From assembly GCF_023169965.1 (NCBI RefSeq), contig NZ_AP025592.1, positions 2,232,001-2,296,000 on the forward strand: a DNA stretch of 64,000 bases, read 5' to 3'. This stretch comes from Anaeromyxobacter paludicola. Lineage in GTDB: Bacteria; Myxococcota; Myxococcia; Myxococcales; Anaeromyxobacteraceae. Shown piece by piece: positions 10,032 through 54,575 of the stretch. Both the position numbers and the translations under genes were made by a program. The notes under the pieces were generated by a model. It worked only from the letters and a program-made list of their open reading frames with translations. It searched no databases and was not told the DNA's origin. Position 1 is the first letter of the stretch; every line of letters starts with the position of its first letter.

Positions 10032-10166
10032 CAGTACCTCGTACGGGGCAAAATCTGGACCAGAGCGCTCGGTCTTATACCGCCGCCCCGTCGGACGCGC
10101 AGCCAGCCTGCCCGGTTCGGCGGCGGGCCGATAGACCCGAACGGGTCTGAGGTGGCGGGAGCGACG
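10032..10166. other. Gap between dxr and rseP
   Basis: 135 bases with no coding potential that I can support. It probably holds the rseP leader, because rseP has its own RBS. No terminator or repeat was seen. Confidence 0.4.
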
Positions 10167-11315: not shown

Positions 11316-11326
11316 GGCGCGGGAGC

Positions 11327-12936: not shown

Positions 12937-12942
12937 GGGCGG

Positions 12943-12948
12943 CTTATA
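12943..12948 (-). promoter_or_regulatory. uppS operon -10 box (leaderless start)
   Basis: TATAAG on the minus strand ends seven bases before the GTG start at 12936, which places +1 at or next to the start codon. There is no Shine-Dalgarno sequence. The -35 region is weak. Confidence 0.5.
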
Positions 12949-12982
12949 GCACGGTCGAAGCGACCGGTCCCCGCCGAGTCGT

Positions 12983-13012
12983 TTGACCGCGGGAGCGCGC
13001 GACTCTTATGCT
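12983..13012 (+). promoter_or_regulatory. Kinase gene promoter
   Basis: TTGACC (12983-12988), an 18-base spacer and TATGCT (13007-13012). The predicted +1 coincides with the GTG at 13019. This decides the start: an in-frame TTG at 12983 is the -35 box itself and cannot be the initiation codon. Confidence 0.6.
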
Positions 13013-13018
13013 CTCGGG

Positions 13019-14143: not shown

Positions 14144-14185
14144 CCGCGGCGCCGGGCGTCGGTCCCTTCCGGTAGACTGCGCGCG

Positions 14186-14908: not shown

Positions 14909-14924
14909 ACTGCGCGCCCTCGCC

Positions 14925-15809: not shown

Positions 15810-15873
15810 GCGGGCGCGGGGACGGCCCCGGCCCGGTGCGGCGCCGCCCCGGCGCGGCGGCTATCCGAGCAGG

Positions 15874-16392
15874 ATGGCCCCGATGCAGAAGCTCGCCGAC
15901 CTCCTCGGCCCGCCGCGGTTCCTGAAGCTCCTCTCCCTCTACCCGCCCTACCTCGGCGCCGGCGTGCGCGTGCTGCAGGCCGAGGCCGACCTCTCGCGGG
16001 TGGAGGTGGAGATGCGGCTCACCCGCTGGAACCGGAACTTCGTCGGCACCCACTTCGGCGGCTCGCTCTACTCGATGTGCGACCCGTTCTTCATGATCAT
16101 GCTGATGAGCCGCATCGGCCCGCGCTACGTGGTCTGGGACAAGGCGGCCGAGGTGGAGTTCGTCCGGCCCGGGCGCGGCACGGTGCGCGCGGTCTTCGAG
16201 CTCCCCGCGCAGCGGGTGGAGGAGATCCGGCGCGGCGCCGACGAGGGGCGCAAGGTGCTGCCCCGCTTCACGGTGGTGGTGCGCGACCTCGAGGGGCAGC
16301 CGGTGGCCCGGGTGGAGAAGACGCTCTACGTGCGGCTCAGGGATCGGGCGGCGGCGACGGCGGACGCCCCCTCCCCCGCCCTCCCCCGCTGA
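15874..16392 (+). CDS. DUF4442 hotdog-fold protein
   Basis: A 172-residue predicted thioesterase-like protein of the DUF4442 (PF14539) type, marked by LTRWNRNFVGTHFGGSLYSM followed by DPFFMIMLMSRIG and DKAAEVEFVRPG. It has neither a signal peptide nor membrane helices. The last eight residues (APSPALPR) come from a palindromic repeat that also supplies the stop codon, so the natural C-terminus has been replaced or extended by the repeat. A TATCCG box begins 12 bases before ATG 15874, suggesting a leaderless mRNA. The physiological substrate is unknown. Confidence 0.8.
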   Translation: MAPMQKLADLLGPPRFLKLLSLYPPYLGAGVRVLQAEADLSRVEVEMRLTRWNRNFVGTHFGGSLYSMCDPFFMIMLMSRIGPRYVVWDKAAEVEFVRPGRGTVRAVFELPAQRVEEIRRGADEGRKVLPRFTVVVRDLEGQPVARVEKTLYVRLRDRAAATADAPSPALPR

Positions 16393-16408
16393 CGCGGGAG
16401 AGGGGGAC
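16366..16408. repeat. Palindromic repeat copy forming the end of the DUF4442 gene
   Basis: CCCCTCCCCCGCCCTCCCCC then GCTGACGCGGGAGAGGGGGA. The TGA in its loop is the stop codon of the DUF4442 gene. The copy thus extends the protein by APSPALPR and then terminates it. Confidence 0.75.
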
Positions 16409-16431
16409 GCCTCGGGGAACCGACAGCCGGC

Positions 16432-18081
16432 TCAGTGGATCCGCTTCCGGTGCCCCGCCCACTCCTTCTCGCGGAGCTTGAACTTCTGCACCTTGCCGGT
16501 GGAGGTCTTGGGCAGCGGCCCGAACTCCACGCGCTTGGGGCACTTGAAGTGGGCGAGGTGCTCGCGGCAGTAGCCGATGAGCTCCTTCTCGCTCGCCTCG
16601 CGGCCGGAGCGCAGGGTCACGAAGGCCTTCGGCACCTCGCCCCACTTCTCGTCGGGGATGCCGATCACCGCCGCCTCGAGCACCGCCGGGTGGAAGTAGA
16701 GGACCTTCTCCACCTCGACCGTGGAGATGTTCTCGCCACCGCTGATGATGACGTCCTTCTTCCGGTCGCGCAGCTCGACGTAGCCGTCGGGGTGCATGAC
16801 CCCGAGGTCGCCGGAGTGGAACCAGCCGCCGCGGAAGGCGACGGCGGTCCCCTCGGGATCGCGGAAGTAGCCCTTGGTCACGTTGTTGCCGCGCATCACG
16901 ATCTCGCCCAGGGTCTCGCCGTCCGCGGGGACGTCGCGCAGCTCCTCGTCCACCACCCGCAGCTCGGGCGAGGTGAGGTAGCCCACGCCCTGGCGCGCCT
17001 TCAGCGCGGCCCGCTGCTCCAGCCCCTCGGCGTTCCACTCCGCCTTCCACTTGCAGACGGCGTGGGGGCCGTAGGTCTCGGTGAGGCCGTAGACGTGGGT
17101 GATCACCGCCCCGAGCGACTCCATGCGCGCGATCACCGACGGCGGCGGCGGGGCGCCGGCGGTGACCGCCCGGAGCGGGCGCGGGAACCGGTAGTCGGGC
17201 GACGGCGCCTCGGCCTGGATCATGACGAGCACGGTCGGCGCGCCGCAGAGGTGCGTCACGCCCTCTCCGGCCACGAGCTCGAACACGCGCGCCGGCTCGA
17301 CCTTGGGGACGACCACGTGGCGCGCGCCGGCCGCGGTGACCGCCCAGGTGAAGCACCAGCCGTTGCAGTGGAACATGGGCAGCGTCCAGAGGTAGACGCT
17401 CTCCGGCTCGAGCCCGGCCTCGACGATCTCGCCGAGCGCGTTCAGGTAGGCGCCGCGGTGCGTGTACATCACGCCCTTCGGCTGCCCGGTGGTGCCGCTC
17501 GTGTAGTTGATGGAGATCGTCTGGTCCTCGTCGTCCACCGCCGGGGTGAACGGCTCGGGCGAGCCGGTGGCGAGGAGCCGCTCGTAGCCGATCTCGCCCC
17601 ACGCCGGGTCGCGCGCGCCGCCCTCGCCGGTCCAGACCAGGAGCGACAGGTCGGCCTCGCGCCGCGCCGCCGCCACCTGCTCCTCGAGCGCGGGGTCGGC
17701 GAGGAGCACGCGCGCGCCGCTGTGGCGCAGGATCGCCACCACCTCGGACGGCGAGAGCCGCACGTTGATGGCCACGAGCACCGCCCCGAGCTGCGGGACG
17801 CCGTAGTGGGCCTCGAGCACCTCGGTCGCGTTGGGCGAGAGCACCGCCACGCGATCGCCCTTGCGCACGCCGGCCCGCTGCAGCGCGGTGGCGAGCCGGT
17901 ACACGCGCTCGCCCAGCTCGCGGTAGGTGAACCGGCGCGCGCCGTCCACCACCGCGAGCTTGTCCGGGAAGACGTGCAGGCTGTGCTCGAGGAAGGAGAG
18001 CGGGGTCAGGAGGGCGCGGTGGACGGGCTGGGCCGCCGGCTCCGGCCGGGCCCAGAGCTTCTGGAAGAGGGGCAGTTCCAT
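16432..18081 (-). CDS. AMP-forming acyl-CoA synthetase
   Basis: A 549-residue ANL-superfamily enzyme that activates a carboxylic acid through an acyl-adenylate and transfers it to CoA. Motifs include the P-loop YTSGTTGQPKGVMYTHRG, the A5 motif YGLTETYGP, GWFHSGDLGVMHPDGYVEL (A7) and DRKKDVIISGGENIS with the C-terminal lysine in PKTSTGKVQKFKLR. The segment FHCNGWCFTWAVTAAGARHV is typical of the medium-chain/DmdB-like branch, not the classical long-chain FadD branch. Convergent with the thioesterase gene ending at 16392. The chain length it accepts is not determined. Confidence 0.92.
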   Translation of the reverse strand: MELPLFQKLWARPEPAAQPVHRALLTPLSFLEHSLHVFPDKLAVVDGARRFTYRELGERVYRLATALQRAGVRKGDRVAVLSPNATEVLEAHYGVPQLGAVLVAINVRLSPSEVVAILRHSGARVLLADPALEEQVAAARREADLSLLVWTGEGGARDPAWGEIGYERLLATGSPEPFTPAVDDEDQTISINYTSGTTGQPKGVMYTHRGAYLNALGEIVEAGLEPESVYLWTLPMFHCNGWCFTWAVTAAGARHVVVPKVEPARVFELVAGEGVTHLCGAPTVLVMIQAEAPSPDYRFPRPLRAVTAGAPPPPSVIARMESLGAVITHVYGLTETYGPHAVCKWKAEWNAEGLEQRAALKARQGVGYLTSPELRVVDEELRDVPADGETLGEIVMRGNNVTKGYFRDPEGTAVAFRGGWFHSGDLGVMHPDGYVELRDRKKDVIISGGENISTVEVEKVLYFHPAVLEAAVIGIPDEKWGEVPKAFVTLRSGREASEKELIGYCREHLAHFKCPKRVEFGPLPKTSTGKVQKFKLREKEWAGHRKRIH

Positions 18082-18184
18082 GCGCCCCCTTCTAGCAGGG
18101 TTCGGGCGCCGCCCGAGGCCCGTGCCCCTCCGGGAGCCGTGCCGCGCCGCGGCATGGCGGCGCGGGTCCGGCTAGGAACGAGCG

Positions 18185-19021
18185 GTGCCCATCGCCACCC
18201 TGCCCGCCTCGCCCCACGCGCCCGCGGCGCGGCCCGCGCGGATCGCCTACCGGAGCGTCGGCGAGGGGCCGCCGGTGCTGTTCCTGCACGGGGGCTGGGG
18301 CGCCGGCGCCTACCCGCTCGACGGCGCCCTCGAGGCGCTCGCGCCGTCGTTCCGGGTGATCGTCCCCGACCGGACCGGCTTCGGCGGCTCGACGCCCACG
18401 CCGGGGCTGGTGGACGGCTTCCACCGCGCCGCCGCCGGGGAGACCGCGCTCCTGCTCGACGCGCTGGAGCTGCCGGAGGTGGCGGTCTGGGGCCACAGCG
18501 ACGGCGCGGTGATCGCGGCCTGGCTCGCCATCGACCGCCCGGAGCGGGTGCGCGCGGTGGTCCTCGAGGCCGGCCACTTCACCGGCCACAAGCCGGGCTC
18601 GCTCGAGTTCTTCCGCGCCGGCCTCGAGCCGGAGGGGCTGCCGGAGTCCTTGCAGGCCGCGCTGGCCCGCGACCACGGCGAGGCGCGCTGGCGCAAGGTG
18701 GTCCGCGCGGGGGCCGAGGCCTGGCTGCGGATCCTGGAGCGCGGCCGGGCCGGGGACGCCGACCTCTTCGGCGGGCGCCTCCCGGAGGTGGGGGCGCCGG
18801 CGCTCCTCCTCCACGGCGACGCCGACCCGCGCACCGAGCCGGGCGAGCTCGCGCGGGCGCAGGCGGCCCTCCCCGCCGCCGAGGTGAAGCTCCTCGCCGG
18901 CGTGGGCCACGCGCCGCACTGCAGCCGCAGGGGGAGCGTGGAGGCGATCGCCGCGCTCTCGGGCTTCCTCGCGAGGGCCTCCGGAGGGGCCGGACGGAGC
19001 CCCGCTCCCGACCCGCGCTAG
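18185..19021 (+). CDS. Alpha/beta hydrolase
   Basis: A 278-residue hydrolase. The oxyanion region is LFLHGGWGAG, and the nucleophile elbow is GHSDG (Ser). LLLHGDADPRTEP supplies the catalytic Asp and GVGHAPHCS the His, so the triad is complete. It has no signal peptide or membrane segment, so it is cytoplasmic, and its substrate is unknown. It starts at GTG 18185 with TAGGAA 12 bases upstream and no RBS, another leaderless candidate. Its TAG stop overlaps the -10 box of the macrodomain gene. Confidence 0.88.
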   Translation: MPIATLPASPHAPAARPARIAYRSVGEGPPVLFLHGGWGAGAYPLDGALEALAPSFRVIVPDRTGFGGSTPTPGLVDGFHRAAAGETALLLDALELPEVAVWGHSDGAVIAAWLAIDRPERVRAVVLEAGHFTGHKPGSLEFFRAGLEPEGLPESLQAALARDHGEARWRKVVRAGAEAWLRILERGRAGDADLFGGRLPEVGAPALLLHGDADPRTEPGELARAQAALPAAEVKLLAGVGHAPHCSRRGSVEAIAALSGFLARASGGAGRSPAPDPR

Positions 19022-19030
19022 ATTGCGACC

Positions 19031-19588
19031 ATGCCCAGCTTCCTCGACGGCCGCCTCGAGATCCTGCACGCCGACATCACCCGCCTCGAGGTGGACGCCA
19101 TCGTGAACGCCGCCAACCCGACGCTGCTCGGCGGCGGCGGCGTGGACGGCGCCATCCACCGGGCCGCCGGCCCGGAGCTGCTGGCCGAGTGCCGCACGCT
19201 CGGCGGGGCGCGCCCGGGCGAGGTGAAGGTGACGGGCGGCTACCGGCTCCCGGCCCGCTTCGTCTTCCACGCCGTCGGCCCGGTCTGGCGGCGGGAGGAG
19301 GAGCCCGCGCCGGGCGAGGAGGCGCCGGAGGATCGGATCCTCGCCCGCTGCTACGGCGAGAGCCTGCGGCTCGCGGCCGAGCGCGAGCTCGCGAGCCTCG
19401 CGTTTCCCGCCATCTCGACCGGCGTCTACGGGTTCCCGAAGGCGCGCGCCGCCCGGATCGCGCTCGCCCAGGTGCGGGAGGGGCTCTCGCGCCTCGAGCC
19501 CCTGCGCCGGGTGATCCTCTGCTGCTTCTCCGAGGCCGACCAGGCGCTGCAGGAGCGCGAGGCGGCGGCGCTGCTGGCCCTCCGGTGA
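19031..19588 (+). CDS. Macrodomain (ADP-ribose-binding) protein
   Basis: A 185-residue stand-alone macrodomain of the YmdB/MacroD type, which removes O-acetyl from ADP-ribose or ADP-ribose from proteins. The typical features are present: [37 protein letters not shown], cited in parts as [17 protein letters not shown] and [16 protein letters not shown], then FHAVGPVW and the phosphate loop [18 protein letters not shown] box sits 12 bases upstream of ATG 19031, overlapping the stop of the hydrolase gene. Convergent with lysC. Confidence 0.93.
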
Positions 19589-39791: not shown

Positions 39792-40706
39792 TCAGCGCCG
39801 ATCGTGCCCCGTTTCACTACTCGCCCTGGGCCGCGCCGGCCCGAGGACGTAGCTCGCGATCTTCGCTCCGGTCGGGTTCGGGCCCGCGAACACGAGATAA
39901 TAGAGGTGCCCGCCCTTCGAGTTCGTGATGAGGCGCGCCGTTGAGACGTGCCCGAAAGCTGTCTTGAGCCGCCCGCGATACCAGTTCAGCAGCCGGTCCC
40001 CGGCGTCGGTTCGTTTCCGGACCCCAGGCTCGAACAGCCCAGGTTCCGACACGTAGACCTCGTCGTACCAGCTCGGATCCCCGAAGTAGAGATCGAGCTT
40101 CGCTCGGGCATTCTTGGTGAACTGCGCGCTCCGCGGCAGCAGCCGCTGGATCGCCATCCCGACTGGGAAGTTGATGAATACCTCCACCTGCTTCGTGTCG
40201 GCCAGTCGCTTGATGGTAGTCCACGGCACCTGCATGCCGAACGGGTCGAGGAACACGACCCCGCGCCACCGCGAATCCGACCCGAGGACCGTCAGAAGCT
40301 TCGTCGTGAGATACGTATTGCAGTCCCCTGAGCGAACGGCGATCTTCCGCGTGGCCCCGTACTGCGCCTCTAGCTCCTTGAGCTCCGCGAGACGGCGTTC
40401 GTCGGTCTCGATGAACACGTAGTGCTCGAACGGCGGGTCGATCTCGAGCGCGACGCGCGGCGAGCCGTCGATGACCTCGCGCGAGTCCTCGTCGCGCGCC
40501 TCGTCACCGAGGTCGAGATGAATCGTGGGGTCGTCGTGCTCCTTCTTCCGGACGACCGCACGACCGGCTGCGGCAAAGGCATCGACGTACACGGTCTTGA
40601 GCGGGGCGTGCTTGCTCAGGATAGTCATGTACGCGGACAGGTACGCCCGGAGCCCGTTCAGCTTCTCACGCGCCCACGGCCCAACCTCGGGCAGGTCCTG
40701 AGTCAT
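39792..40706 (-). CDS. tcmP: Three-Cys-motif partner protein TcmP
   Basis: A 304-residue protein of the TcmP family (TIGR04474), named for its regular pairing with three-Cys-motif Gp37/Gp68 proteins. [14 protein letters not shown] (residues about 39-52) and [15 protein letters not shown] (about 165-180) look like motifs I and IV of a Rossmann-fold methyltransferase. Between them lie [21 protein letters not shown] and [10 protein letters not shown]. The function is not established. It is divergent from the Gp37-like gene at 40824 across 117 bases. Codon use is less extreme in GC than flanking genes, suggesting acquisition. RBS GAAGGGGGA before ATG 40706. Confidence 0.87.
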
Positions 40707-40783
40707 GTCTGGATGTCCCCCTTCGTCCGCTTCGCACGGGTCGCGAAAGTTTCGCTTACGTGCTGGGGAACAGTGTACGACGC

Positions 40784-40789
40784 TATACT
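40784..40789 (+). promoter_or_regulatory. -10 box before the Gp37-like gene
   Basis: TATACT, close to the consensus TATAAT, 35 bases before ATG 40824, in the gap divergent from tcmP. The -35 region is weak. Confidence 0.5.
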
Positions 40790-40823
40790 GACGTTCAGGA
40801 TCTTGGGCGGGCAGGAGCCGGGA

Positions 40824-41543
40824 ATGAGCGACCACAGCACCATCGAGTGGACGGACGCGACGTGGAACCCCATGCGCGGCTGTACCAAGATCTCGCCGGG
40901 CTGCGCCCACTGCTATGCCGAGACGTTCGCCGAGCGGTTCCGTGGCGTGCCGGGTCACCCGTTCGAACAGGGCTTCGAACTCCGCCTCGTGCCGGAGGCT
41001 CTCGATCTTCCGCTCCGCTGGAAGAAGAGCCGCCTCATTTTCGTCAACTCCATGAGCGACCTCTTCCACGAGAAGGTGCCCGACTCGTACATCGAACAGG
41101 TGTTCGCGGTGATGCGGCAGGCCGCGCAGCATCGGTTCCAGGTCCTGACGAAACGCGCGGAGCGACTCGAATCGTTCACGCAGCGCCACGCCCCGTCACC
41201 GAACGTCTGGCTTGGCGTGAGCGTCGAGAACGCAGACTACACTTGGCGGATAGACCACCTTCGTCGCGCGCAGGCTCGCGTCCGCTTCCTGTCCATCGAG
41301 CCGCTGCTCGGGCCGATCCCCGATCTGGACGTCCGGGGGATCGACTGGGTGATCGTAGGCGGAGAGAGCGGCGGCAAGTGCCGCCCCATGAACGCGGCGT
41401 GGGTGCGGGAGATACGTGATCGCTGTCGGTCCCGTCGGGTCCCGTTCTTCTTCAAGCAGTGGGGCGGGTTCCAGAAGAAAAAGAACGGTCGCGAGCTCGA
41501 CGGGCGCACGTGGAACGAGATGCCCCGCGCCGCGGCTGGGTAG
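40824..41543 (+). CDS. Gp37/Gp68 (DUF5131) three-Cys-motif protein
   Basis: A 239-residue protein of the phage Gp37/Gp68 family (PF07505, DUF5131). The N-terminus has the diagnostic CX6CX2C motif [16 protein letters not shown] (Cys 20, 27, 30), preceded by [11 protein letters not shown], resembling iron-sulfur/SAM-type clusters. [13 protein letters not shown] and [15 protein letters not shown] follow. It is paired and divergent with tcmP. The pair is known to co-occur on phages and mobile DNA; its function is unknown. A/T-richer than its neighbours. Confidence 0.88.
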
Positions 41544-43360: not shown

Positions 43361-46300
43361 TTGCAAACGGTCGAGCGGACTCGAGGCGAATCGGAGCGGA
43401 ACGGTCGGCAGGCGCGGCGCTCGCCGGGGCCGGGCCGCGCCCGCCGCGGCGCTGCGGGCCGGGCCCCGCGCGTCCTGCTCGCGCTCCTGCTGGCCACCGC
43501 TCCGGTCGCCGGGCGCGCCGCGAACACCACGCTCCTCGGCGACTACCTCGGCTCCGAGGCGACCAGCGTTGCCCAGGCCTGCCCGGCCAGCCCGCTCGCC
43601 GACGTGGACCACTTCAGCCTCGCGACCTCGCTGGGGACCGACTCGGTCACCTCGGTCACGCTCACGCTCACCGGGACGGGCGGGATCCAGCGCGTGGACG
43701 TCACCAGCGACGACGGCCTGACCACCTACGGCCAGCTCGCGTCGCCGGGGACCTCGGCCACGGTCTCGCTCACCACGCCCATCCCGGTCACCATCACGCC
43801 GACCCAGTACCGGGTGAAGGTGCTGCCCAAGGGCTACGGCATCACCGCGAGCTACAGCGTCACCGCCCGCGTGAGCAGCCTCGTCGCCACCAACGCGGTC
43901 AGCGGCACCGACGCGGGCAGCGGCACGGTGGTCGTGGACGGCGCGCCGCCCGACTACGTCTCCGGGGCCCAGCTCACGACCTCTGGGCAGCAGGCGAGCT
44001 TCTCCTGGACCAACCCCACCACCGACTTCGACCACGTGGTGGTGCTCCGCAGTGGGGCCGGGAAGAGCGTCCAGAACTACCAGCTCACGAGCGGCACCAC
44101 CTACACCGCCGGGACCCAGGTCGGCACCGACACCGTCCTCTACGTCGGGACGCTCACCTCCTTCACCGACACCCTCAACGCACAGTACACCTACGGCATC
44201 GCGACCGCCGATCGCTGCAACAACTACAAGTACGCGACCCTCCTGACTCCCGCCTACGTCACCGTCGGCGAGTTCTACAACCTCGAGCCGGGCAACAACC
44301 GGGTCTGCCCCGGCGCGGCGGCCCTCAGCGCCGACATGTTCACGATGGGGGCCACGAACTACACCGCCAACGGCTACGCGGTGACCGCCGTGACGGTCGC
44401 CCTCACCAACCCGCAGGCGGTGCAGAGCGTCCGCATCGTCATGAGCGGCACGGTGCTCGGCCAGCTCGCCAACCCGGGGAGCACGGCCGTCATCCCCCTG
44501 AGCCCGCCGATCCAGGCCAACAGCACCTTCGGCATCTACAACGTGCAGATCGCGCCCGCGCCCTACGCCTCGCTCACGAGCGGCCAGGCGTATCCGGTCA
44601 CGGCCAAGGTCATCGGCGTCACCACCTCGATCCCGATCCTCGTCAACGACTCCAACCCGAGCGCCGTGATCACGGTGGACTGGAGCACCCCGACGGCGGT
44701 GTCCGGCCTGACCGGCGCCGCCTCGGCCCCGAGGATGATCCACCTCGCCTGGACCAACCCCTCGGGCACCCTGCCCCCGCCCAACTTCGGCGGGGTGGTG
44801 GTGCTCCGGAGCCAGCCGGGCGCCGCGATCCAGACCACCGCGCTCGCCGACGGCGCGACCTACGCCGCAGGCTCGCAGGTCGGCGCCGACACCGTCGTCT
44901 ACACCGGCACGGGAACCGCGCTCGACGACGTGGTGACGGGCGGGCTCACGTACCAGTACGCGGTCTTCAGCGTGAACCCCTGCTCCGGGACCGGCACCAA
45001 GTACTCGGCGCCGGTCCTCGCGGGCCCGATCACGGCCACGGTGCCGAGCCACTTCCTCGCCGGCGGGGCGGCGGTGAACGAGGGCGTGGACGGCACCGTC
45101 ACCACCTTCCTCCAGGCGGCGGCGCCGACGAGCGCGGGGGCGTGGAGCGGGTGGACCGCCACCGCCGGCCCCTTCGTGCCGGTGGCGCGCTTCTACGGCC
45201 CCACCTACGCGGATCAGCGGCTCGTCGCCGCCAACGCCACCGCGTCGCTCTGGCTCACCAGCTCGAACCCCTCCCCTGCCGACCCGGAGTGCGGGGGCCC
45301 CTTCCCCGCCGACAGCTTCCGGGCCGACCTGCTCGACCACGATCCGGACGGCCCGGCCGGGAACGGGACGCTCATCGGCTCGGGGACCGTCACGAGCCCC
45401 GGCGGCACCGCCGCGCTCGTCCCGGTCGCCTTCGCCAACGCGCCCTACACCATCGCGCCGGGCCACCGGCTCGTCCTCCAGCTCAACTACTCGGCCTCCA
45501 CCGCCGACAGCTACTGCAGCTCCAACGGGCTCGTCTACGGCAGCCCCGCGATGTCGAGCGGCGTCGCGATCTCCGACGCCGTGACCTGCACGCCCTCGAG
45601 CGCGCTCGCCATGCCGGCCGGCCAGGGCGCCGGCGGCGTGTCGCTCGATCCGGCCGCGCTCGTCACCGCGACCGGGGTGAGCGGGCTCCGCTTCCGGGTG
45701 GGGCTCGCGCCGAGCGACGGGTTCGCCGCCCTCGATCCGAAGTGGACCAGCACCAACATCGGCTCGGGCGTCACGGCCGGCGCCGCGCTCACCGCGAGCG
45801 GCGGGCAGCTGCGCGTGCAGAGCCCGAACGGCACCGGCGCCTTCGGGACCACCGACTACTTCCGGTTCGTCTCGCAGCCCGTCGCCCTGAGCGGCGACTT
45901 CACGGTGGACGTCCGGGTGGACGAGATCGACGGCTCGGCCAGCAGCCCGCGCGCCGGCCTCATGGTCCGGCAGGACCTCTCGGCGACGGCCGTCAACGCG
46001 GCCCTGTTCGTGGCGCCGGGCGCAGGGGCGGTGTTCCAGGCCCGGAGCACGACCGGCGGCGCCACCGCTTCGACCACCGTCGCGGGGGTCACGCCGGCCG
46101 CGTGGATCCGGCTCAGCCGCGCCGGCGGCACGCTCACCGGCTACTACTCGAGCGACGGCGTGTCGTGGACCCAGGCCGGCTCGCAGGCCGTCTCGCTCAC
46201 CGGCACCTTCTACGTCGGCGTGGCGGTCGGCGCCGGGTCCTTCGTCTACCCGTACACCGCCTCCTTCTCGCGCTTCCTCCTGACCCAGCCCTACGTCCCG

Positions 46301-49300
46301 AGCGACTGGTCCACCGGCACCTACGCGACGGCGGCCTGGCCGCGCGGCACCTACTGGCTCCTCGCCCAGGGCACGACCAACTGCGGGAACCCCCTCCCGC
46401 CGGTGATGGGCGCGTTCCACTTCTCGGTCGGGACCACCACGCTCGGCGATCACCTCGCCTCGGAGCCGCCCGACGTCCCGCAGGCCTGCCCCGCGCCCGG
46501 CGCCAGCGGCGCCACCTACGACGCCGACGCCTTCACCCTCTCGACCTCCGTCTTCACCGACAGCGTCACCGCGCTCACGCTGGCGCTCACCGGCACCCCC
46601 TCGGCCGCCCAGTCCATCCTGGTCACGAGCGACGACGGCGCGACCGTCTACGGCCAGGTGACCCCGTCGAGCCTCACGCCGACCGTGGCGCTCGCGACGC
46701 CGATCCCGGTGACCACCACGCCGCGCCAGTTCCGGCTCAAGATCCTGCCGGCCGCCTACGCCGCCCTGGCCTCGGGGCAGAGCTACCCGCTCACCGCCCG
46801 GGTGACGACGCTCACGTCGAACAACGACGTCGCCGGCGCCGACGCCAGCGGCGCCACGGTGACGGTGGACCGCGCGCCGCCGACGCCCCCCGCGTCGTGG
46901 AGCGCCGCCGCGACCGCCACCCCGAACCAGATCGCGCTCTCCTGGCAGAACCCCGCGACCGACTTCACCCGGGCGGTGATCCTGCGCAGCGCCGGGGGCG
47001 CGAGCGTGCAGACCACCCGCCTCACCGACGGGACGAGCTACGTGATGGGCGGCACGCTCGGCACCGACACGGCCGCCTACGTCGGCGCGGCGCAGGCCTA
47101 CTCGGACCAGGCGCAGGGCGGGCTCGCCTACCGCTACCTCGCCTTCTTCGGCGACGCCTGCGGCAACTACTCCGCCGGCGTGCCGGCCGGCCCGGCCACG
47201 CCGGTGGTCCCGCCCTACGCGACGACGGTGGGGGCGCTCACGGCCACGCCCGGCTTCTGCTCCCAGGTGAGCCTGTCGGCCGCCTTCAGCGGCGACGGCG
47301 ACCTCGACAACGCGGCCACTTTCGCCCGCGGCAGCTCGCCCTTCGGGCCGTTCACCCCGGCCTCCTGCGCCTCGGCCCCGTCGCGTGGGCTCACCACCTG
47401 GTCGTGCGTGGACGACAGCCCGACCACCGGAGGGCTCTGGTACTACCAGGTCACCTTCACCGACGGCGACGGCGTGAACGGCCAGAGCACCGCCCTCACC
47501 GGACCGGTCGTCGTCTCGGCCTGCGCCGACGGCACGGGCGCGCTCACGGTGATCCCCCTCGGGGCGACCCCCGACGTGGCGGCGGCCCCGCCCGGCTCGG
47601 TCAACGTCACCGCCGGCAAGTTCCGCCTGAACGTGGCCAACGGCTCGGTGCAGGTGACCGGCATCACCCTCGCCAACACCGCCGCCAAGGCGGCCCCGCC
47701 GGGCGAGCTCCAGTCGGTGAGCCTCTACGAGGACCTGGGCACGACGCCGGGGGCCTGGGACGCGGGCGACGCCAAGGTCGCCACCGCCGTCTACGACCCC
47801 GGCCGGATGGCCTGGGTCCTGCCCGGCTTCGCCGTGACCGCGGGGAACCACGACTACGTCCTCACGGTGGCGGTGACCCTCGGCGCCGACCCCACCGCCG
47901 GCGAGCAGTTCCGGCCGTCATTCGGCACCGCGGACGTGAGCGTCATCTCCGGCGCCCGCATCCTCAACACCGCGACGGTGACCGGCGGCACGGTCACGAT
48001 CGCCGGGGCGCTCGCCGGCGCGGCGGTGGGCGACCCCACCCCGCAGAGCCTCGTCCCGATGGTCTCGATCCTGAACCCCGGGCACGCCGCCACCGTGAGC
48101 ACGGACGCGAGCAGCCGGATCCGGGTGCAGGTGCAGGTCTACGACCCGAGCGGCAGCGGGGTCTCGAGCGTGAAGCTCTCGCGCGCCGCCGGCGCGAGCG
48201 GCACCTTCACCGACACGCTCGCCCCCAACGCGGCCTACGCGTCGGTGGCCGGCGCGAAGGCGGGCGTGTACCAGGCGGACCTCGCGTTCACGCCGGGCGC
48301 GTACGTGCTGCAGGCCCAGGCGGTGAGCGCGAGCGGCAACACCGGCTACTCGTCCCCGGCGGTGATCACGGTGAACGCGAAGCGGACCGGGGACGGCAAC
48401 CTCCTCGCCCGCGCCAACTCGAGCCAGCTCTGCGTGGATTGCCACAACGTCAAGACCCACTCGAGCCAGAGCACCGCCGACCCGGCGACCGGCCTCTCCA
48501 AGTACGGCTCCTGGTCCACCACCTGCCGCGACTGCCACACCCCGCACAACACCCACAACGCCCAGCTCCTGCGCGAGAGCATCGTGCCGCCCTCGTACGG
48601 CGGCTACGTGCCCGCCAAGACCGTGGTGTTCCAGGACCGGATCACCGGCGACTCGGGCGCCACCTCCACCGCGGTCTCCTTCGTGACGAGCAACGCGAGC
48701 CTCGTCGCGGCCCGGACCACCGGGCCGTGCCAGGCCTGCCACACGCGCACCGCGAGCCCGGCCGGCGTGGCGCGCTGGCGCGGTGCGGGCAACCAGGACC
48801 CGGCCCACTACGCCGGGACCGACACCACCGCCTGCACCGGCTGTCACTCCCACCAGAACGGCTTCCGCGGGCGCGAGGCCCAGGGCGGCGAGTCCTGCGC
48901 GAAGTGCCACGGCGCCAAGCTCGCGGGGATGCAGGCCGGGGCGCGCGCCTCGGCCCACGCCCTCGGCGCGGCGGGCGCGAGCGACGCGCCGCAGGACAAC
49001 GCCACCGCCTGGGGTAATCCCCTCGCGGCCAACGCGCCGGCCGCGCGCTCCTGCGTGGACATGTGCCACCCGGACCACGTCCACAACGATCCCTCGGCCT
49101 GGCCGGCGGCCGTCCACGCGAGCAATCTCCACCGGTCGCCCCTGACGGCGGCCTCGCGCGCGCTCACCCGCGACACCACTCCGTCGAGCGCCACCTACGG
49201 GCAGGCCACCGCGGCGAGCGGCGCCGGCGTGCTGCGCGCCGACCACGTGCCGGGTCAGGTCCAGGGCTGCATGGCCTGCCACCAGAACCCGGTGGACGCG

Positions 49301-50650
49301 AGCCGGCCCTACATCGACGCGACCCGCTACGATCTCTCGGCCCACAACACCACCTCGGCGGGCGGGACGGCGTGGGAGTACGTGATGCACGACGACGCCC
49401 CCGGGGCGACGCCGAGCGTGAGCTCGCGGCTGCAGCGCAACTGCACCAAGTGCCACGCCGGCCGCCAGAGCGAGGGGCAGACGCCGAGCTGGAGCGTGCA
49501 GGGCAACGGGCCGGTCCAGGGGCCGCACTGGTCCGACAATCCGGCCCTGCTCGCGGGGGCCCTCGCGCCCGCGGGCGATCCGACGCGGAACGTCTGCTAC
49601 AACTGCCACGGCGGCGGGACCGGCGCCGGCAAGGACTTCTCGGGCAAGAACGTGGCCCAGGCGGTGGCCCGCGGGGCCGCCGGCGCGCGCCACCCGGTGG
49701 ACGCGGTCTCGCAGCACTCGACCGCCGTGGAGTCGGCCGCGACGTACGGGACGCGGCTCGGGGGCGCTCCCCGCCACGCCGGCTGCGCCGACTGCCACGA
49801 CGCCCACCAGGCCCGGTCGGGCGCGCACACCACCGGCAGCCCCCTCGCCGGCCCCACGCTGCAGGGCGCCTACGGCGCGACGCTGTCCACCTACCCGCCG
49901 GGCTGGAACCCGCCGGCGAGCCCGTCCTACTGGACCGCCGGCCGCCTCCAGGCGGGCGTCGACCTCGAGGCGGCGCTCTGCTTCAAGTGCCACTCGGCCT
50001 GGTACTGGGGCAGCGGCACGCCGCCCACCTCGCCCGACCTCGGCGCCGCGGCGACCGACCAGGCGCGCGAGTTCAACCCGAACAACCTCTCGTTCCACCC
50101 GGTGCTCTCCGACTGCTCGAAGAACATCGGCCGCATCGACCCGCGGAACCTCCTCGGGAGCTGGAACAAGACGGCCAACGTCAACCGGATGACCTGCACC
50201 GACTGCCACGCCTCCGACTCGACGAGCGACCCCGCCGGCCCGCACGGCGCCGGCTCGCGCTTCCTGCTCAAGGGTCCCAACACCGCCTGGGACGCCAGCG
50301 TGAACTGGGCGGGCAACTACGGCAAGACCGGCAGCCAGGGCATCTTCTGCTTCAACTGCCACGACCCGAGCTTCGCCTACACCCGCAACCCGATGCACAC
50401 CGACACCGGCTTCGAGTACCACGGCGGGATGCCCTGCCAGACCTGCCACGCCGCGGTGCCGCACGGCGGGCCCCAGGTCGGGCTGCTGGTGGCGGGGGCG
50501 GGCAGCGGCGCGGCGACGTGGGCCGGCGACTACGACGGCTCGCCGACGTACGCCGCCAGCCAGTGGCTGTACATCGCCGGCTACCCGGGAGCGGGGAACA
50601 CCTGGCAGCAGGGCAACTGCGGCTGCGGCGGGCCAAGCCACAGTGAGTGA
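43361..50650 (+). CDS. Giant secreted 14-heme cytochrome with adhesin-like repeats
   Basis: A protein of about 2,429 residues from TTG 43361 (good GGGGGGAA RBS five bases before). A long basic n-region precedes the hydrophobic signal core (VLLALLLATAPVAGRA), so it is exported. Residues about 54-1690 are beta-sandwich/Ig/Fn3-type modules. One module type (VTSDDGxTxYGQ, ATPIPVT, FRLKILP or YRVKVLP) appears near residues 54, 305 and 1025. A DUF1349-like jelly roll (YYSSDGVSWTQAGS) lies around 785-960. From 1691 to 2363 there are 13 CXXCH motifs (for example CVDCH, CRDCH, CYNCH) plus one CX3CH (CVDMCH at 1898). It has no C-terminal membrane segment. It is likely extracellular or surface-bound for electron transfer or metal reduction. 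The stop overlaps resB. Confidence 0.93.
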   Translation: MQTVERTRGESERNGRQARRSPGPGRARRGAAGRAPRVLLALLLATAPVAGRAANTTLLGDYLGSEATSVAQACPASPLADVDHFSLATSLGTDSVTSVTLTLTGTGGIQRVDVTSDDGLTTYGQLASPGTSATVSLTTPIPVTITPTQYRVKVLPKGYGITASYSVTARVSSLVATNAVSGTDAGSGTVVVDGAPPDYVSGAQLTTSGQQASFSWTNPTTDFDHVVVLRSGAGKSVQNYQLTSGTTYTAGTQVGTDTVLYVGTLTSFTDTLNAQYTYGIATADRCNNYKYATLLTPAYVTVGEFYNLEPGNNRVCPGAAALSADMFTMGATNYTANGYAVTAVTVALTNPQAVQSVRIVMSGTVLGQLANPGSTAVIPLSPPIQANSTFGIYNVQIAPAPYASLTSGQAYPVTAKVIGVTTSIPILVNDSNPSAVITVDWSTPTAVSGLTGAASAPRMIHLAWTNPSGTLPPPNFGGVVVLRSQPGAAIQTTALADGATYAAGSQVGADTVVYTGTGTALDDVVTGGLTYQYAVFSVNPCSGTGTKYSAPVLAGPITATVPSHFLAGGAAVNEGVDGTVTTFLQAAAPTSAGAWSGWTATAGPFVPVARFYGPTYADQRLVAANATASLWLTSSNPSPADPECGGPFPADSFRADLLDHDPDGPAGNGTLIGSGTVTSPGGTAALVPVAFANAPYTIAPGHRLVLQLNYSASTADSYCSSNGLVYGSPAMSSGVAISDAVTCTPSSALAMPAGQGAGGVSLDPAALVTATGVSGLRFRVGLAPSDGFAALDPKWTSTNIGSGVTAGAALTASGGQLRVQSPNGTGAFGTTDYFRFVSQPVALSGDFTVDVRVDEIDGSASSPRAGLMVRQDLSATAVNAALFVAPGAGAVFQARSTTGGATASTTVAGVTPAAWIRLSRAGGTLTGYYSSDGVSWTQAGSQAVSLTGTFYVGVAVGAGSFVYPYTASFSRFLLTQPYVPSDWSTGTYATAAWPRGTYWLLAQGTTNCGNPLPPVMGAFHFSVGTTTLGDHLASEPPDVPQACPAPGASGATYDADAFTLSTSVFTDSVTALTLALTGTPSAAQSILVTSDDGATVYGQVTPSSLTPTVALATPIPVTTTPRQFRLKILPAAYAALASGQSYPLTARVTTLTSNNDVAGADASGATVTVDRAPPTPPASWSAAATATPNQIALSWQNPATDFTRAVILRSAGGASVQTTRLTDGTSYVMGGTLGTDTAAYVGAAQAYSDQAQGGLAYRYLAFFGDACGNYSAGVPAGPATPVVPPYATTVGALTATPGFCSQVSLSAAFSGDGDLDNAATFARGSSPFGPFTPASCASAPSRGLTTWSCVDDSPTTGGLWYYQVTFTDGDGVNGQSTALTGPVVVSACADGTGALTVIPLGATPDVAAAPPGSVNVTAGKFRLNVANGSVQVTGITLANTAAKAAPPGELQSVSLYEDLGTTPGAWDAGDAKVATAVYDPGRMAWVLPGFAVTAGNHDYVLTVAVTLGADPTAGEQFRPSFGTADVSVISGARILNTATVTGGTVTIAGALAGAAVGDPTPQSLVPMVSILNPGHAATVSTDASSRIRVQVQVYDPSGSGVSSVKLSRAAGASGTFTDTLAPNAAYASVAGAKAGVYQADLAFTPGAYVLQAQAVSASGNTGYSSPAVITVNAKRTGDGNLLARANSSQLCVDCHNVKTHSSQSTADPATGLSKYGSWSTTCRDCHTPHNTHNAQLLRESIVPPSYGGYVPAKTVVFQDRITGDSGATSTAVSFVTSNASLVAARTTGPCQACHTRTASPAGVARWRGAGNQDPAHYAGTDTTACTGCHSHQNGFRGREAQGGESCAKCHGAKLAGMQAGARASAHALGAAGASDAPQDNATAWGNPLAANAPAARSCVDMCHPDHVHNDPSAWPAAVHASNLHRSPLTAASRALTRDTTPSSATYGQATAASGAGVLRADHVPGQVQGCMACHQNPVDASRPYIDATRYDLSAHNTTSAGGTAWEYVMHDDAPGATPSVSSRLQRNCTKCHAGRQSEGQTPSWSVQGNGPVQGPHWSDNPALLAGALAPAGDPTRNVCYNCHGGGTGAGKDFSGKNVAQAVARGAAGARHPVDAVSQHSTAVESAATYGTRLGGAPRHAGCADCHDAHQARSGAHTTGSPLAGPTLQGAYGATLSTYPPGWNPPASPSYWTAGRLQAGVDLEAALCFKCHSAWYWGSGTPPTSPDLGAAATDQAREFNPNNLSFHPVLSDCSKNIGRIDPRNLLGSWNKTANVNRMTCTDCHASDSTSDPAGPHGAGSRFLLKGPNTAWDASVNWAGNYGKTGSQGIFCFNCHDPSFAYTRNPMHTDTGFEYHGGMPCQTCHAAVPHGGPQVGLLVAGAGSGAATWAGDYDGSPTYAASQWLYIAGYPGAGNTWQQGNCGCGGPSHSE

Positions 50651-51962
50651 CGGCGAGCCCGGACCGGTCGGCCGGCGGAGCCGGCTCGGCCGACTGAAGC
50701 GCGCGCTGCGCACGCCCGCCATCATCCTCGCGGAGGTGCTCGGGCTCGCGGCCGCCGGCGCTCTGCTCGCGACCGTGCCCCAGGCCGGCGCGGGCGGGGA
50801 GCTCGAGGCGGGGCCGCTCGGGACGCCGCTCCGGCTGCTCGGCGCCGACCGGGTGCTGCGCACGCCCTGGTTCGCGGGGCTCGTCCTCGCCACCGCGGCG
50901 TCGCTCCTCGTCATCGTCTGGGATCAGTGGCGGCAGCTCCTGCGCACCTGGCGCGCGCCGCCGTCCCTCTACCGGCTGCGCGGAGCCCACTACCGCCGCG
51001 AGCTCGAGCGCCCCGCCACGCCCGGCGGGCCGCCGCCGCCCGTCGTGCGCCGCGAGCACCGGCTCGGGCTCGCCGGCTCGCCGCTGCTGCACCTCGGGCT
51101 CTTGCTGGTGGTGCTGGCGGGCCTGCTCCGCGCCACCCTGGCGCGCGAGGCCCTGGTGGACCTCGTGGAGGGGCAGCCGCTCGACCCCGCGCCGTCGGCC
51201 TACGGGCTGCAGCGCGGTGGGCTCCTGGCGAGCCCCTTCGCACTGCCGGAGCGGCTCCGGATCGAGCGCTTCCACCTGGAGCGGTACCCGAGCGGCGCGC
51301 TCAGCGCGCTCTCCGTGGACGTGCGGCTCGGCGCCGAGCAGCGGCCGGCGCGCGTCGCCATCAACGCCCCGCTGGAGCTGGGCTTCGACCGGCTCTACGT
51401 CACGCAGACGATGGGGCCGGCGGCGTTCCTGGTCCTGTCCCGGCCCGGCGCGGCGCCGGTCCGGGCGGCGATGTTCCTCCGCGAGGAGCGTCCGGGCGGC
51501 AGGCGCCTCCTCTCGGAGCACGGCTTCCCCGGCGGGACGACGCTGCGGGTCGAGACCCTCCCGGCCGCGGCCGGCACCGGAGCTGGGGCCCGCCGGGCGC
51601 TGTGGGTCACCGCGCTCCGGGGCGGGGCGCCGGCCGGCGCGGCGGCGCTCGCGCCCGGGGAGGCCCTCGACCTGCCGGGGGGCGAGCAGGTGCGGCTGCT
51701 CGAGGTGCGCCGCTGGATCCGGTTCGCCGGCGCGCGCGACCCGTTCACCGCGCTCGCCTACCTGGGGTTCGTGCTCGTGGTCGCCGGCGCGGCGCTGCTC
51801 TTCTTCCTCGTCGAGGTGGAGTGGGCGGTGGTCCCGGAGCCGGGAGATCGGCCCGAGGTGGAGCGGGTGACGGTGCTGCTCCGGGCGCGGCGCTTCGCGC
51901 CCCTGCAGCGGGAGCGGTTCGAGCGGCTGGTCGAGGCGGCGGGGCGAGGGGGCGAGGGGTGA
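50643..51962 (+). CDS. resB: ResB-family cytochrome c biogenesis protein
   Basis: A 439-residue membrane protein starting at GTG 50643, overlapping the cytochrome stop by 8 nt. Three hydrophobic helices (AIILAEVLGLAAAGALLATV; FAGLVLATAASLLVIVW; LLHLGLLLVVLAGLL) precede a large periplasmic domain, and a fourth helix (GFVLVVAGAALLFFLVEVEW) is near the end, as in ResB/Ccs1. With CcsA it forms the system II synthase that carries heme out and ligates it to cytochrome c. The tight coupling suggests it serves the adjacent cytochrome. It is shorter than some ResB proteins but has the right topology. Confidence 0.88.
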   Translation: MSDGEPGPVGRRSRLGRLKRALRTPAIILAEVLGLAAAGALLATVPQAGAGGELEAGPLGTPLRLLGADRVLRTPWFAGLVLATAASLLVIVWDQWRQLLRTWRAPPSLYRLRGAHYRRELERPATPGGPPPPVVRREHRLGLAGSPLLHLGLLLVVLAGLLRATLAREALVDLVEGQPLDPAPSAYGLQRGGLLASPFALPERLRIERFHLERYPSGALSALSVDVRLGAEQRPARVAINAPLELGFDRLYVTQTMGPAAFLVLSRPGAAPVRAAMFLREERPGGRRLLSEHGFPGGTTLRVETLPAAAGTGAGARRALWVTALRGGAPAGAAALAPGEALDLPGGEQVRLLEVRRWIRFAGARDPFTALAYLGFVLVVAGAALLFFLVEVEWAVVPEPGDRPEVERVTVLLRARRFAPLQRERFERLVEAAGRGGEG

Positions 51963-51964
51963 CG

Positions 51965-52786
51965 ATGGCGTGGGACGGGTTCCGGACGCAGGTGGTGCTG
52001 CAGTGGGGCGCGGTAGCCTGCGACGTCGCGGCCGCGGCCCTCTTCACGAGCGCGGCGCTCTTCGCCCGCCCGGCGCGGGCGCGCTGGGCGCGGTGGTGCG
52101 CGGCGCTGGGGCTCGCGCCGCACGGCGTCGCGATCGCGCTGCGCTGGCTCGAGGTGGGGCACGGCCCCTACATGATGAAGTACGAGGTGCTCACCTCGAT
52201 CTCCTTCACCGCCGTCGCCCTGCTGCTCGTCTTCCTGTGGCGCCGGCCGGACTGGAGCGCGCTCGCGGTGGTGGTGATGCCGGTCGCGATCCTGCTGCTC
52301 GGGCTCGGCCTCTTCGCCCACCCCGCCGCGCGGGACCTCCCGCCGACGCTGCGCTCGGCCTGGCTCGTCTTCCACGTCATCTTCGCGAAGCTGTCGGCGG
52401 GGGCCTTCATCCTCTCCCTCGCCACCGCGATCTGCCTGCTGCGCCAGGAGCGCCGGCCGAGCCCGCGCATCCCCCCGGCCGACGCGCTCGACGCCTACAC
52501 GGTCCGGTTCGTCGGCTTCGGGTTCGTGTTCTGGAGCGTCACCATCGCCGCCGGGGCCATCTGGGCCAACCAGTCCTGGGGCCGGTACTGGGGCTGGGAT
52601 CCCATCGAGACCTGGTCGCTCGTGAGCTGGCTCGTCTACGCGGCCTACCTCCACGCGCGGCTCTTCTTCCGGATGGCGCGCGCAGCCGCGGCGTGGCTCG
52701 CCATCGCCTGCTTCGCCCTCTTCATCCTCACCTTCCTGGTGCTCACCTTCGTCGTGCCGTCGCTCCACTCGGCCTACCTGCAGTGA
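51965..52786 (+). CDS. ccsA: CcsA/ResC-type cytochrome c synthase subunit
   Basis: A 273-residue membrane protein with eight hydrophobic helices. It has the heme-handling WWD signature (WGRYWGWDPIETWSLVSW) between helices and conserved histidines (VFHVIFAKLSAGAF; a later HARLFF). It is the partner of ResB in system II heme ligation. The start is ATG 51965. An in-frame GTG at 51959 would overlap the ResB stop by 4 nt and is possible. It is the last gene of the cytochrome operon. Confidence 0.92.
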   Translation: MAWDGFRTQVVLQWGAVACDVAAAALFTSAALFARPARARWARWCAALGLAPHGVAIALRWLEVGHGPYMMKYEVLTSISFTAVALLLVFLWRRPDWSALAVVVMPVAILLLGLGLFAHPAARDLPPTLRSAWLVFHVIFAKLSAGAFILSLATAICLLRQERRPSPRIPPADALDAYTVRFVGFGFVFWSVTIAAGAIWANQSWGRYWGWDPIETWSLVSWLVYAAYLHARLFFRMARAAAAWLAIACFALFILTFLVLTFVVPSLHSAYLQ

Positions 52787-52853: not shown

Positions 52854-54575
52854 ATGCCTCCCCGCTGGGGTCGTCGCGCCCCGGAGCTCGCCGCGGCCGC
52901 CGCCGGACTCGCCCTCTTCCTCTGCCTCGGTGGCGGGGCGGTGATCCGGCCCGGGAACGTGGCGTGGATGGGCGCGGGCGACTGGGCCTCGCACCTCCTC
53001 GGCTGGCTCCACTTCCGCAACGCCGCCTGGGCGCTGCCGCTCGGGCGCATCGACGGCGAGCTCTACCCGGTCGGCACCACCGTCGGCTTCACCGACTCGA
53101 TCCCGCTCCTGGCGATCCCGCTCAAGCTCGCCTCGCCGCTCCTGCCCGGCACCTTCCAGTACTTCGGCGCCTGGCTCGCCCTCTGCTTCGCCCTGCAGGG
53201 CTGGGCCGGCGCCCGGCTCACCGCCGTCCTCTCGGATCGCCCGCTGCACCGGGCCCTGGGCGGCGCCCTCTTCGCCCTCGCGCCGCCGCTCGCGGCCCGC
53301 GCGGTGCTCTTCCGGCACCCCAGCCTCTGCGCCACCTGGCTCCTGGTGGGGCTCCTCGCGCTCGCCCTCGCGCCGGCCGCCGCCGCGCCGGGTCCGGCGC
53401 GGCGGGCCCTCGGCGCGCTCGGGCTCGTGCTCCTCGCCGCCGCGATCCACCCGACGCTCTGCGCCCTGGCGCTCGGCCTCGCGCTGGCGCTGCTCGCCCG
53501 GAGCGCGCTCGAGGGCGCCCTCTCCTGGACCCGCGCCGCCGCCTGGAGCGCGGCCGTCGCCGCGCTCGCCGCGGCGCTCCTGGCGCTCCTCGGGTACGCC
53601 GGCGGCACCCCCTCCGGCGCCGCCGGGTTCGGCGAGTTCTCGGCCGACCTGCTCTGGCCCCTGAACGGCTTCGGCGCCTCCCGCCTGCTCCCGGCCCTGC
53701 CCGCCGGGCCGGGTCAGTACGAGGGGATGGGCGCCCCCGGCCTCGGCGCGCTCGCGGCGGGCGCGGCCGGGCTCGCGCTCCTCGCCGCCCAGCGCCGGCT
53801 CCGGCCCGCCCCCGGGCGGCTGCGGGCGCTCTCGCCGCTGCTCGGGGTCAGCCTCGCCTGCGCCGCCTTCGCGCTCGCCACCCCGATCACGCTCGCCGGC
53901 CGGCCGCTCCTCTCCCTCGACGCGATCTACGCGCGGCTCGGGCCGCTCACCGGCGCCTTCCGCGCCTCGGGCCGGTTCGTCTGGCCGCTGTCGCTCCTCC
54001 TCACCGCCGGCGCCCTCGCGGCGCTGCTCGCCGCGCTCCGGGATCGGCCCCGCCTCGCCACCGCCGCGCTCGCGGGCGCGGTGGCGCTCCAGGCGGCGGA
54101 CCTCTCGGCCCTCCCCGCCCGCGACCTCTTCCCGGCGCGGGCCTGGCGGCTCGCGTCGCCGGCGTGGGAGGCGGCGCGCGGCGTCCGCCACGTGGCGATG
54201 CTGCCGCCGGAGATCAAGAACGGCGGGCCGTCCTGCAACGGCGACTACGCCTGGGACGACTACGTGCCGCTCTCCGAGCTCGCCTACCGGCTCGGCGCCA
54301 CCTTCAACAGCGGCTGGACGGCGCGGCTCGACGCCGGGGCCTCGGAGGCGGCCTGCCGCGCGCTCCTGGCCGAGGCGCTCGCCGGCGCGCTCCGCCCCGA
54401 CACCCTCTACGTGCTCCACCCGCGCATGCGCCGCCACCTGCCGCCCGGCAGCGCCCGGTGCGGCGAGGTGGAGGGCCACACGGTCTGCGTGGCGCCGGGG
54501 ACCGCCGGCCCCCTGGCGACGCTCGCGGCGGCCTGGACGCCCTTCCCGGATCCGTCGCGCCTGGACGGGAGGTAG
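52854..54575 (+). CDS. Large polytopic membrane protein (GT-C like)
   Basis: A 573-residue membrane protein with about 10-11 hydrophobic helices, a short N-terminal basic cap and a soluble C-terminal part (after residue about 440, MLPPEIKNGGPSCNGDYAWDDY onward). GAGDWASHLLGWLHFRNAAW resembles the Asp-containing luminal loop of polyprenol-dependent GT-C glycosyltransferases and DUF6311 proteins, but no firm family call was made. RBS GGAAGAAGGAG before ATG 52854. It may be transcribed with the cytochrome operon, because only 67 bases separate them. Confidence 0.7.
   Translation: MPPRWGRRAPELAAAAAGLALFLCLGGGAVIRPGNVAWMGAGDWASHLLGWLHFRNAAWALPLGRIDGELYPVGTTVGFTDSIPLLAIPLKLASPLLPGTFQYFGAWLALCFALQGWAGARLTAVLSDRPLHRALGGALFALAPPLAARAVLFRHPSLCATWLLVGLLALALAPAAAAPGPARRALGALGLVLLAAAIHPTLCALALGLALALLARSALEGALSWTRAAAWSAAVAALAAALLALLGYAGGTPSGAAGFGEFSADLLWPLNGFGASRLLPALPAGPGQYEGMGAPGLGALAAGAAGLALLAAQRRLRPAPGRLRALSPLLGVSLACAAFALATPITLAGRPLLSLDAIYARLGPLTGAFRASGRFVWPLSLLLTAGALAALLAALRDRPRLATAALAGAVALQAADLSALPARDLFPARAWRLASPAWEAARGVRHVAMLPPEIKNGGPSCNGDYAWDDYVPLSELAYRLGATFNSGWTARLDAGASEAACRALLAEALAGALRPDTLYVLHPRMRRHLPPGSARCGEVEGHTVCVAPGTAGPLATLAAAWTPFPDPSRLDGR

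Follow-up and report, generated by a model that had tools for sequence, protein, structure and literature searches.

The 64-kb window (the whole stretch of Anaeromyxobacter paludicola DNA analysed here, 74% GC, from a genome that is a single contig of 4.59 Mb) contains an operon in which the gene for a giant exported cytochrome, bearing repeated beta-sandwich modules towards its N-terminus and 14 heme motifs towards its C-terminus, overlaps resB, which in turn overlaps ccsA; these two genes encode a System II cytochrome c synthase that falls in another clade than the cytochrome. The interpretation that we favour, with a probability of about 0.6, is that the product is an exported 14-heme electron carrier held in a glycan matrix, and that the co-expressed synthase is exchangeable and non-exclusive and adds heme-loading capacity. 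The arm of glycan-binding-type and Fn3 modules would hold the cytochrome at the cell surface or in the extracellular polysaccharide, and electrons would be carried or stored by the heme array at the C-terminal end. The overlapping resB-ccsA genes would be co-translated with the cytochrome through translational coupling, and ResB-CcsA, by exporting and attaching heme, would supply extra System II capacity exactly when the 14-heme apoprotein is made. It counts against this explanation that the called genes of the operon include none recognised as coding for an outer-membrane conduit.

Organisation of the operon

The features of the operon and of the gene that follows it are:

43361..50650, + strand: giant multiheme cytochrome, 2,429 aa, TTG start, a single ORF without internal stop
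43361..43522, + strand: signal peptide, with long basic n-region, hydrophobic core and AxA-type cleavage near aa 54
43526..44230, + strand: module copy 1, beta-sandwich (sialidase N-terminal-domain-like) plus Fn3, modelled with AlphaFold2
44261..45040, + strand: module copy 2, 34% identical to copy 1 in the alignment
45797..46285, + strand: DUF1349-like region between copies 2 and 3 (PF07081, E 2.7e-6, sub-threshold: 27.6 bits, cut-off 32.4)
46493..47203, + strand: module copy 3, 46% identical to copy 1 in the alignment
48431..50449, + strand: heme region with 14 motifs, 673 residues (aa 1691-2363)
49052..49069, + strand: CX3CH site CVDMCH, the sixth heme, from alignment with relatives
50450..50647, + strand: C-terminal tail following the heme region, with ...NCGC..S..H at its end and a single Cys that is invariant in the alignment
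50643..51962, + strand: resB (CcsB-type System II subunit), 439 aa, GTG start, Pfam ResB PF05140 E 3e-16
51959..52786, + strand: ccsA (System II synthase subunit), 275 aa, GTG start, Pfam Cytochrom_C_asm E 1e-37
52854..54575, + strand: DUF6311 membrane protein (PF19830, E 2e-29), 67 nt 3' of ccsA

A preliminary description of this DNA had proposed an exported fusion protein of some 2,430 residues that joins beta modules to hemes, with a stop codon overlapping the start of resB, and with resB and ccsA contiguous. All of this is upheld by the present analysis: the fusion is encoded by one ORF that begins with a signal peptide, the cytochrome TGA (50648-50650) lies within an 8-nt overlap that starts at the resB GTG (50643), and the ccsA GTG (51959) lies over the resB stop in an overlap of 4 nt. 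GC3 is 0.90-0.99 over the whole cytochrome ORF, which is coding-like. The sole other candidate start is an in-frame TTG at 43328, and a GGGGGG tract is found immediately 5' of the start at 43361. The product has both the many CXXCH motifs and the signal peptide by which multiheme c-type cytochromes are recognised, and it matches Pfam Cytochrome_C7 (E 2e-12) and Paired_CXXCH (E 3e-10). The signal peptide, LLALLLATAPVAGRAA, was recognised by eye; inspection of its sequence showed no lipobox, and beyond it there is no further transmembrane stretch in the giant cytochrome. It is followed by beta-rich modules, some 1,630 residues in all, then by the 14-heme region, and finally by the Cys-containing tail.

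The joining of two separate genes through an assembly error, which had been raised as a possible objection, is excluded in practice because seven paralogues show the same fusion of modules to hemes, and so do independent genomes, among them those of two isolates, A. terrae and A. oryzisoli. No report of a fusion between glycan-type modules and a multiheme cytochrome was found in a literature search that took in few subscription papers.

In the related operons that were inspected, no DUF6311 gene follows. About 2 kb 5' of the operon lies an adjacent divergent pair of genes, at 39792-40706 (-) and 40773-41543 (+), which PADLOC marks as candidate defence genes PDC-M41A (E 8e-72) and PDC-M41B / PDC-M30B (E 1e-112; Pfam DUF5131), and which have low codon-usage scores.

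The N-terminal modules

The repeated module is a unit of about 240 aa, and its three copies in the window's cytochrome agree with the earlier count of at least three copies of a beta-sandwich module accompanied by Fn3-like domains. Nearly all of the related giant cytochromes carry the unit, one to three times each. Structure prediction with AlphaFold2 was confident (pLDDT 93.4) and gave a sialidase-type beta-sandwich followed by a second domain that aligns to Fn3. On structure comparison the sandwich superimposed on the N-terminal domain of bacterial sialidases (6myv/4q6k/7qxo) with a Z-score of 11.9 (129 residues, 2.7 A). Sialidases accounted for nine entries with Z-scores of 10.9-11.9, against 8.7 for the best non-sialidase match. 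In the matched sialidase entry 8t24 the corresponding region is named as a CBM and has fructose bound. A search of the giant cytochrome against Pfam produced no adhesin match. The modules had originally been described as adhesion modules: N-terminal beta modules are indeed present, their identity as adhesins is unproven, and since the first domain of the module matches a carbohydrate-binding domain of sialidases, a probable glycan-binding arm is the better reading. For the modelled domain, such a match establishes a fold and not a ligand. The combination of glycan-binding-type modules with a heme array, if borne out, would allow electron carriers to be retained in exopolysaccharide with no need of a membrane anchor.

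The heme region

The 14 heme motifs initially counted in the C-terminal region were confirmed, as 13 CXXCH and one CX3CH; shuffles of the cytochrome that preserve its composition contained a mean of 0.07 CXXCH motifs and a maximum of two. All 14 align across six full-length paralogues. The sixth-heme site is CX3CH in the window's cytochrome and in those of loci L036, L020, L040, L041, L042, L097 and L098, and is CXXCH (CLMCH) in L018 and L038. In the alignment of the heme region, 12 of the 25 non-motif His residues are invariant, compared to 64 of the 663 residues that remain (Fisher p 2e-6), which suggests that these 12 are likely to be distal ligands, nearly one per heme. With 12 invariant non-motif His for 14 hemes, it is suggested that the hemes of the giant cytochrome are bis-His and low-spin, and this would fit a role in electron transfer. 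A profile search of PDB sequences with the heme region, made to look for a relation to solved structures such as the nanowires OmcS, OmcE and OmcZ or MtrC-type cytochromes, returned nothing better than E 0.31, and AlphaFold2 modelling of a 759-aa heme region from 12 sequences gave a pLDDT of 31, so the model was discarded. The tail that follows the last heme has the pattern LYI.S.P..G...Q..NCGC, conserved in the cytochrome family together with the invariant Cys, and it could be either structural or a sorting signal.

The linked ResB-CcsA synthase

ResB has four predicted transmembrane segments, and its TM-His1 (H150) is aligned with the transmembrane His of canonical ResB homologues. CcsA has at least six predicted transmembrane segments and (numbered from the ATG at 51965) a WGRYWGWDP motif, P-His1 at H137, TM-His2 at H230 and P-His2 at H268; against the TIGR03144 model for CcsB it scores E 1e-47, slightly below the model cut-off. 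The residues required for CcsBA function are TM-His1/2, P-His1/2 and the WWD motif (PMC6299221), and all of these His and WWD residues are kept in the window's ResB and CcsA. The pair is therefore an intact-looking System II synthase, for which heme ligation is predicted.

Paralogues and other synthases in the genome

With the heme region as query, seven further giant paralogues were found in the same genome, making eight giants altogether. Linked resB/ccsA genes accompany four of them: the giant in the window; that of L018; that of L019, where resB adjoins the giant and ccsA is divergent at the opposite end; and that of L020/L021, a single giant (G000:2188324-2196630) lying between two resB-ccsA pairs, one on each side. 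These two flanking pairs (L020 9489-11620 and L021 4722-6756) belong to different clades. The other four giants (L036, L037, L038 and L039) have no linked synthase, and among them is the nearest paralogue of the window's cytochrome (L036), 76% identical in the heme region and 55% in the arm over 1,100 residues. Within its own genome, then, the architecture is not the unusual one that it had been taken to be. The System II genes of this genome amount to seven ResB and eight CcsA-type loci, and include a canonical ResBC fusion (L017) and a second resB+ccsA pair (L022); in L023 there is a HemX-like gene without TM-His2. A search of the genome revealed no CcmF, so other System II synthases are those available to serve the orphan giants.

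Recurrence in other genomes

About two dozen loci were found outside this genome (duplicates were removed by eye) where a giant cytochrome adjoins ResB, and usually CcsA as well. They are found in Anaeromyxobacteraceae, in other Myxococcota and in Geothrix. Genes outside the window were called with a home-made codon-usage caller, so that start sites there are approximate, and several of the related loci are on contigs of metagenome-assembled genomes (MAGs) that end near the operon. At E<=1e-15 the heme family is present in 22 of 195 sampled Myxococcota genomes. The isolate Geothrix sp. SG200 (L063), which lies outside the Myxococcota, has the cytochrome followed by resB, lipoprotein and ccsA genes, and the arrangement therefore crosses phyla; in the Acidobacteriota it is represented by one isolate, plus a weak unlinked match in a Thermoanaerobaculia MAG. 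Locus L041 was considered as a third phylum and set aside, as the contig, from a 'Victivallales' MAG and of 69% GC, may be mis-binned. A single 653-aa ORF of L041 joins ResB to the lipoprotein, and there is no ccsA on the stretch examined.

The fullest gene order is a PKD/NHL-type exported protein, a 5-heme cytochrome, the giant cytochrome, resB, ccsA and a lipoprotein, and in operons of the L018/Geothrix type the last three genes run resB, lipoprotein, ccsA. Among cultivated relatives, A. terrae SG22 (L040) has the complete operon. The operon in the window is a reduced form, with three of the usual six genes, and a six-frame HMM search found the PKD protein, the 5-heme cytochrome and the lipoprotein to be absent from it. 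The lipoprotein is small and NTF2-like, with a weak match to Pfam TcaA_5th; it adjoins resB/ccsA in most relatives (for example L018 11289-11843, L040 14248-14763 and L063 11996-12454) and may belong to the linked System II as a third component. Radical SAM genes are found beside operons of the L018/Geothrix type (L018 14235-15569 (-), L063 13350-14756 and L041 2-1141), two of them with a B12-binding domain.

The related giants differ in the number of their heme motifs: the range is 12 to over 60, with 90 in an ORF of L100. This ORF (8366-19558, G014:C28, - strand) encodes 3,730 aa with 74 CXXCH, 2 CX3CH and 14 CX4CH motifs, about equal in number to the 86 of an ANME protein (PMC9012536).

Clade mismatch and the role of the synthase

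In phylogenetic trees the window's ResB-CcsA groups with those of L018, Geothrix and L124 (100/100), here called clade I, and its cytochrome groups with those of L036, L020 and the rest of the other clade (100/99), clade II. A clade II synthase pair is also encoded in this genome, at L021. AU tests reject the alternative placements with p 1.2e-5 for the cytochrome and 8e-8 for the synthase, values that are somewhat optimistic, as the grouping was decided on with the identity matrix already known. The identities themselves are stark: CcsA of the window is 58% identical to that of Geothrix and 39% to that of A. terrae, whereas its heme region is 31% identical to that of Geothrix and 47% to that of A. 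terrae. The cytochrome and the synthase thus have their origins in different clades and were brought together; the synthase seems to be a replacement that came from a different branch of the operon family. With a clade I ResB-CcsA behind a clade II cytochrome, the synthase would be operon-linked and yet exchangeable.

It is tempting to go further, and to see in ResB, CcsA and the conserved NTF2-like lipoprotein a distinct and mobile variant of System II, a machine that loads heme onto very long apocytochromes with between 14 and some 90 hemes. On this view the window presents a natural swap, by which the synthase would prove to be generic, and linkage rather than recognition would be what matters. 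This broader proposal is tentative and rather doubtful.

The mismatch bears most directly on the idea that the linked ResB-CcsA is substrate-specific, either recognising only cytochromes of this type or being needed for the CX3CH site. Conservation of the linkage across loci speaks for such specificity, as do the proposal made for ANME CcmF2 (PMC9012536) and the Wolinella precedent of NrfI and CcsA1, which serve odd motifs (PMC6976685). For loci outside this genome, distances between cytochromes are also correlated with those between their ResB (0.91) and CcsA (0.92) partners, as would fit specific pairing; common descent by itself produces one too. A dedicated lyase should be both linked to its substrate and co-inherited with it, and this holds in the other loci (r 0.91), but the window's synthase is linked and not co-inherited. 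Because cytochrome and synthase there come from different clades, fine tuning of the one to the other is not evident. Nor does the CX3CH site account for the linkage. It occurs together with clade I ResB in the window and in L041, with clade II synthases elsewhere, and without any linked synthase in L036 and L037, while L018 has a linked clade I synthase and CXXCH only. The odd heme motif, previously offered as the reason for a private synthase, thus tracks neither the clade nor the presence of the synthase, and was rejected as a general reason for linkage. What stands of the private synthase is the linkage, conserved in many related loci; exclusivity is unlikely, since the nearest paralogue (L036) has no adjoining synthase and further System II synthases are encoded elsewhere in the genome, and the clade mismatch also tells against it. 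Substrate specificity of the linked pair is accordingly considered improbable.

A somewhat poorer prospect is that the synthase genes are passengers, there through shared regulation or through shared transfer of an electron-transfer island, with heme loaded by a common System II pool to which this pair brings nothing special. Half of the giants in the genome (4/8) manage without a linked synthase, and several other synthases are encoded there, as passengers would lead one to expect; but the immediate overlap and the complete set of catalytic residues are repeatedly conserved in divergent lineages, which implies selection for linkage. Least probable is an enzyme, or a metal- or heme-binding scaffold, in place of an electron conduit, with the beta modules targeting a polysaccharide-bound substrate: no porin-cytochrome conduit adjoins among the operon's called genes, the modules are of glycan-binding type and one site is odd-spaced (CX3CH), odd heme sites being catalytic in MccA-type reductases, but with an invariant extra His for almost every heme an open coordination site is hardly indicated, and the arrays of 40-90 motifs in relatives look more like wiring or storage than catalysis.

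Comparison with known systems

Geobacter genomes contain several System II ResB / ResC-HemX pairs each, co-transcribed with multiheme cytochromes and proposed, without functional test, to be dedicated to the neighbouring cytochromes (Aklujkar 2009, PMC2700814). The likeness lies in the placing of System II pairs beside multiheme cytochromes several times per genome; the difference is that the Geobacter neighbours are separate cytochromes without glycan-type modules, and in an indirect comparison, through a scan of genomes, no homology between these pair-linked cytochromes and the window's family came to light. The tested cases are NrfI and CcsA1 of Wolinella succinogenes, System II synthases on which particular multiheme cytochromes, encoded in linkage with them, depend (PMC6976685); they are fused single polypeptides specialised for CXXCK or CX15CH, whereas the window has split ResB and CcsA and only CX3CH. 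An operon for 16-heme and 26-heme cytochromes is known from SEEP-SRB1 and Geobacter, with homologues reported in Anaeromyxobacter (Skennerton 2017, PMC5539420). It resembles the present family in its large exported multiheme cytochromes and has a beta-propeller neighbour, but its core, as described, consists of a beta-propeller protein, two cytochromes and a PPIase, without ResB-CcsA or cytochrome-fused modules.

ANME archaea have giant modular cytochromes with up to 86 hemes, of which MHC-C has a pectin-lyase-like domain, and a paralogous synthase, CcmF2, which adjoins MHC-B and has been proposed to serve giant apoproteins or modified motifs (Chadwick 2022, PMC9012536). Giant cytochromes with surface- or sugar-related non-heme domains and an adjoining paralogous synthase are thus common to both. 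The ANME proteins, however, are archaeal, depend on System I (CcmF), and have S-layer domains and transmembrane anchors; the window offers System II in a Gram-negative lineage, with modules of beta-sandwich and Fn3 and no transmembrane anchor.

The idea of dedication through linkage of the synthase has already been proposed, for Geobacter in 2009 (PMC2700814) and, in a System I counterpart, for ANME MHC-B in 2022 (PMC9012536), and with it the question of why so many System II synthases are kept beside giant cytochromes, as posed for Geobacter and in turn for CcmF2. What is added here is a family of cytochromes joining glycan-type modules to 14 hemes, its multi-gene operon with a conserved lipoprotein, the spread of that operon, and a mismatch through which dedication can be put to the test. 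With four giants linked to a synthase, four that are not, and a mismatched pair, all in a background free of System I, this genome provides natural controls by which substrate recognition may be told apart from heme-loading capacity.
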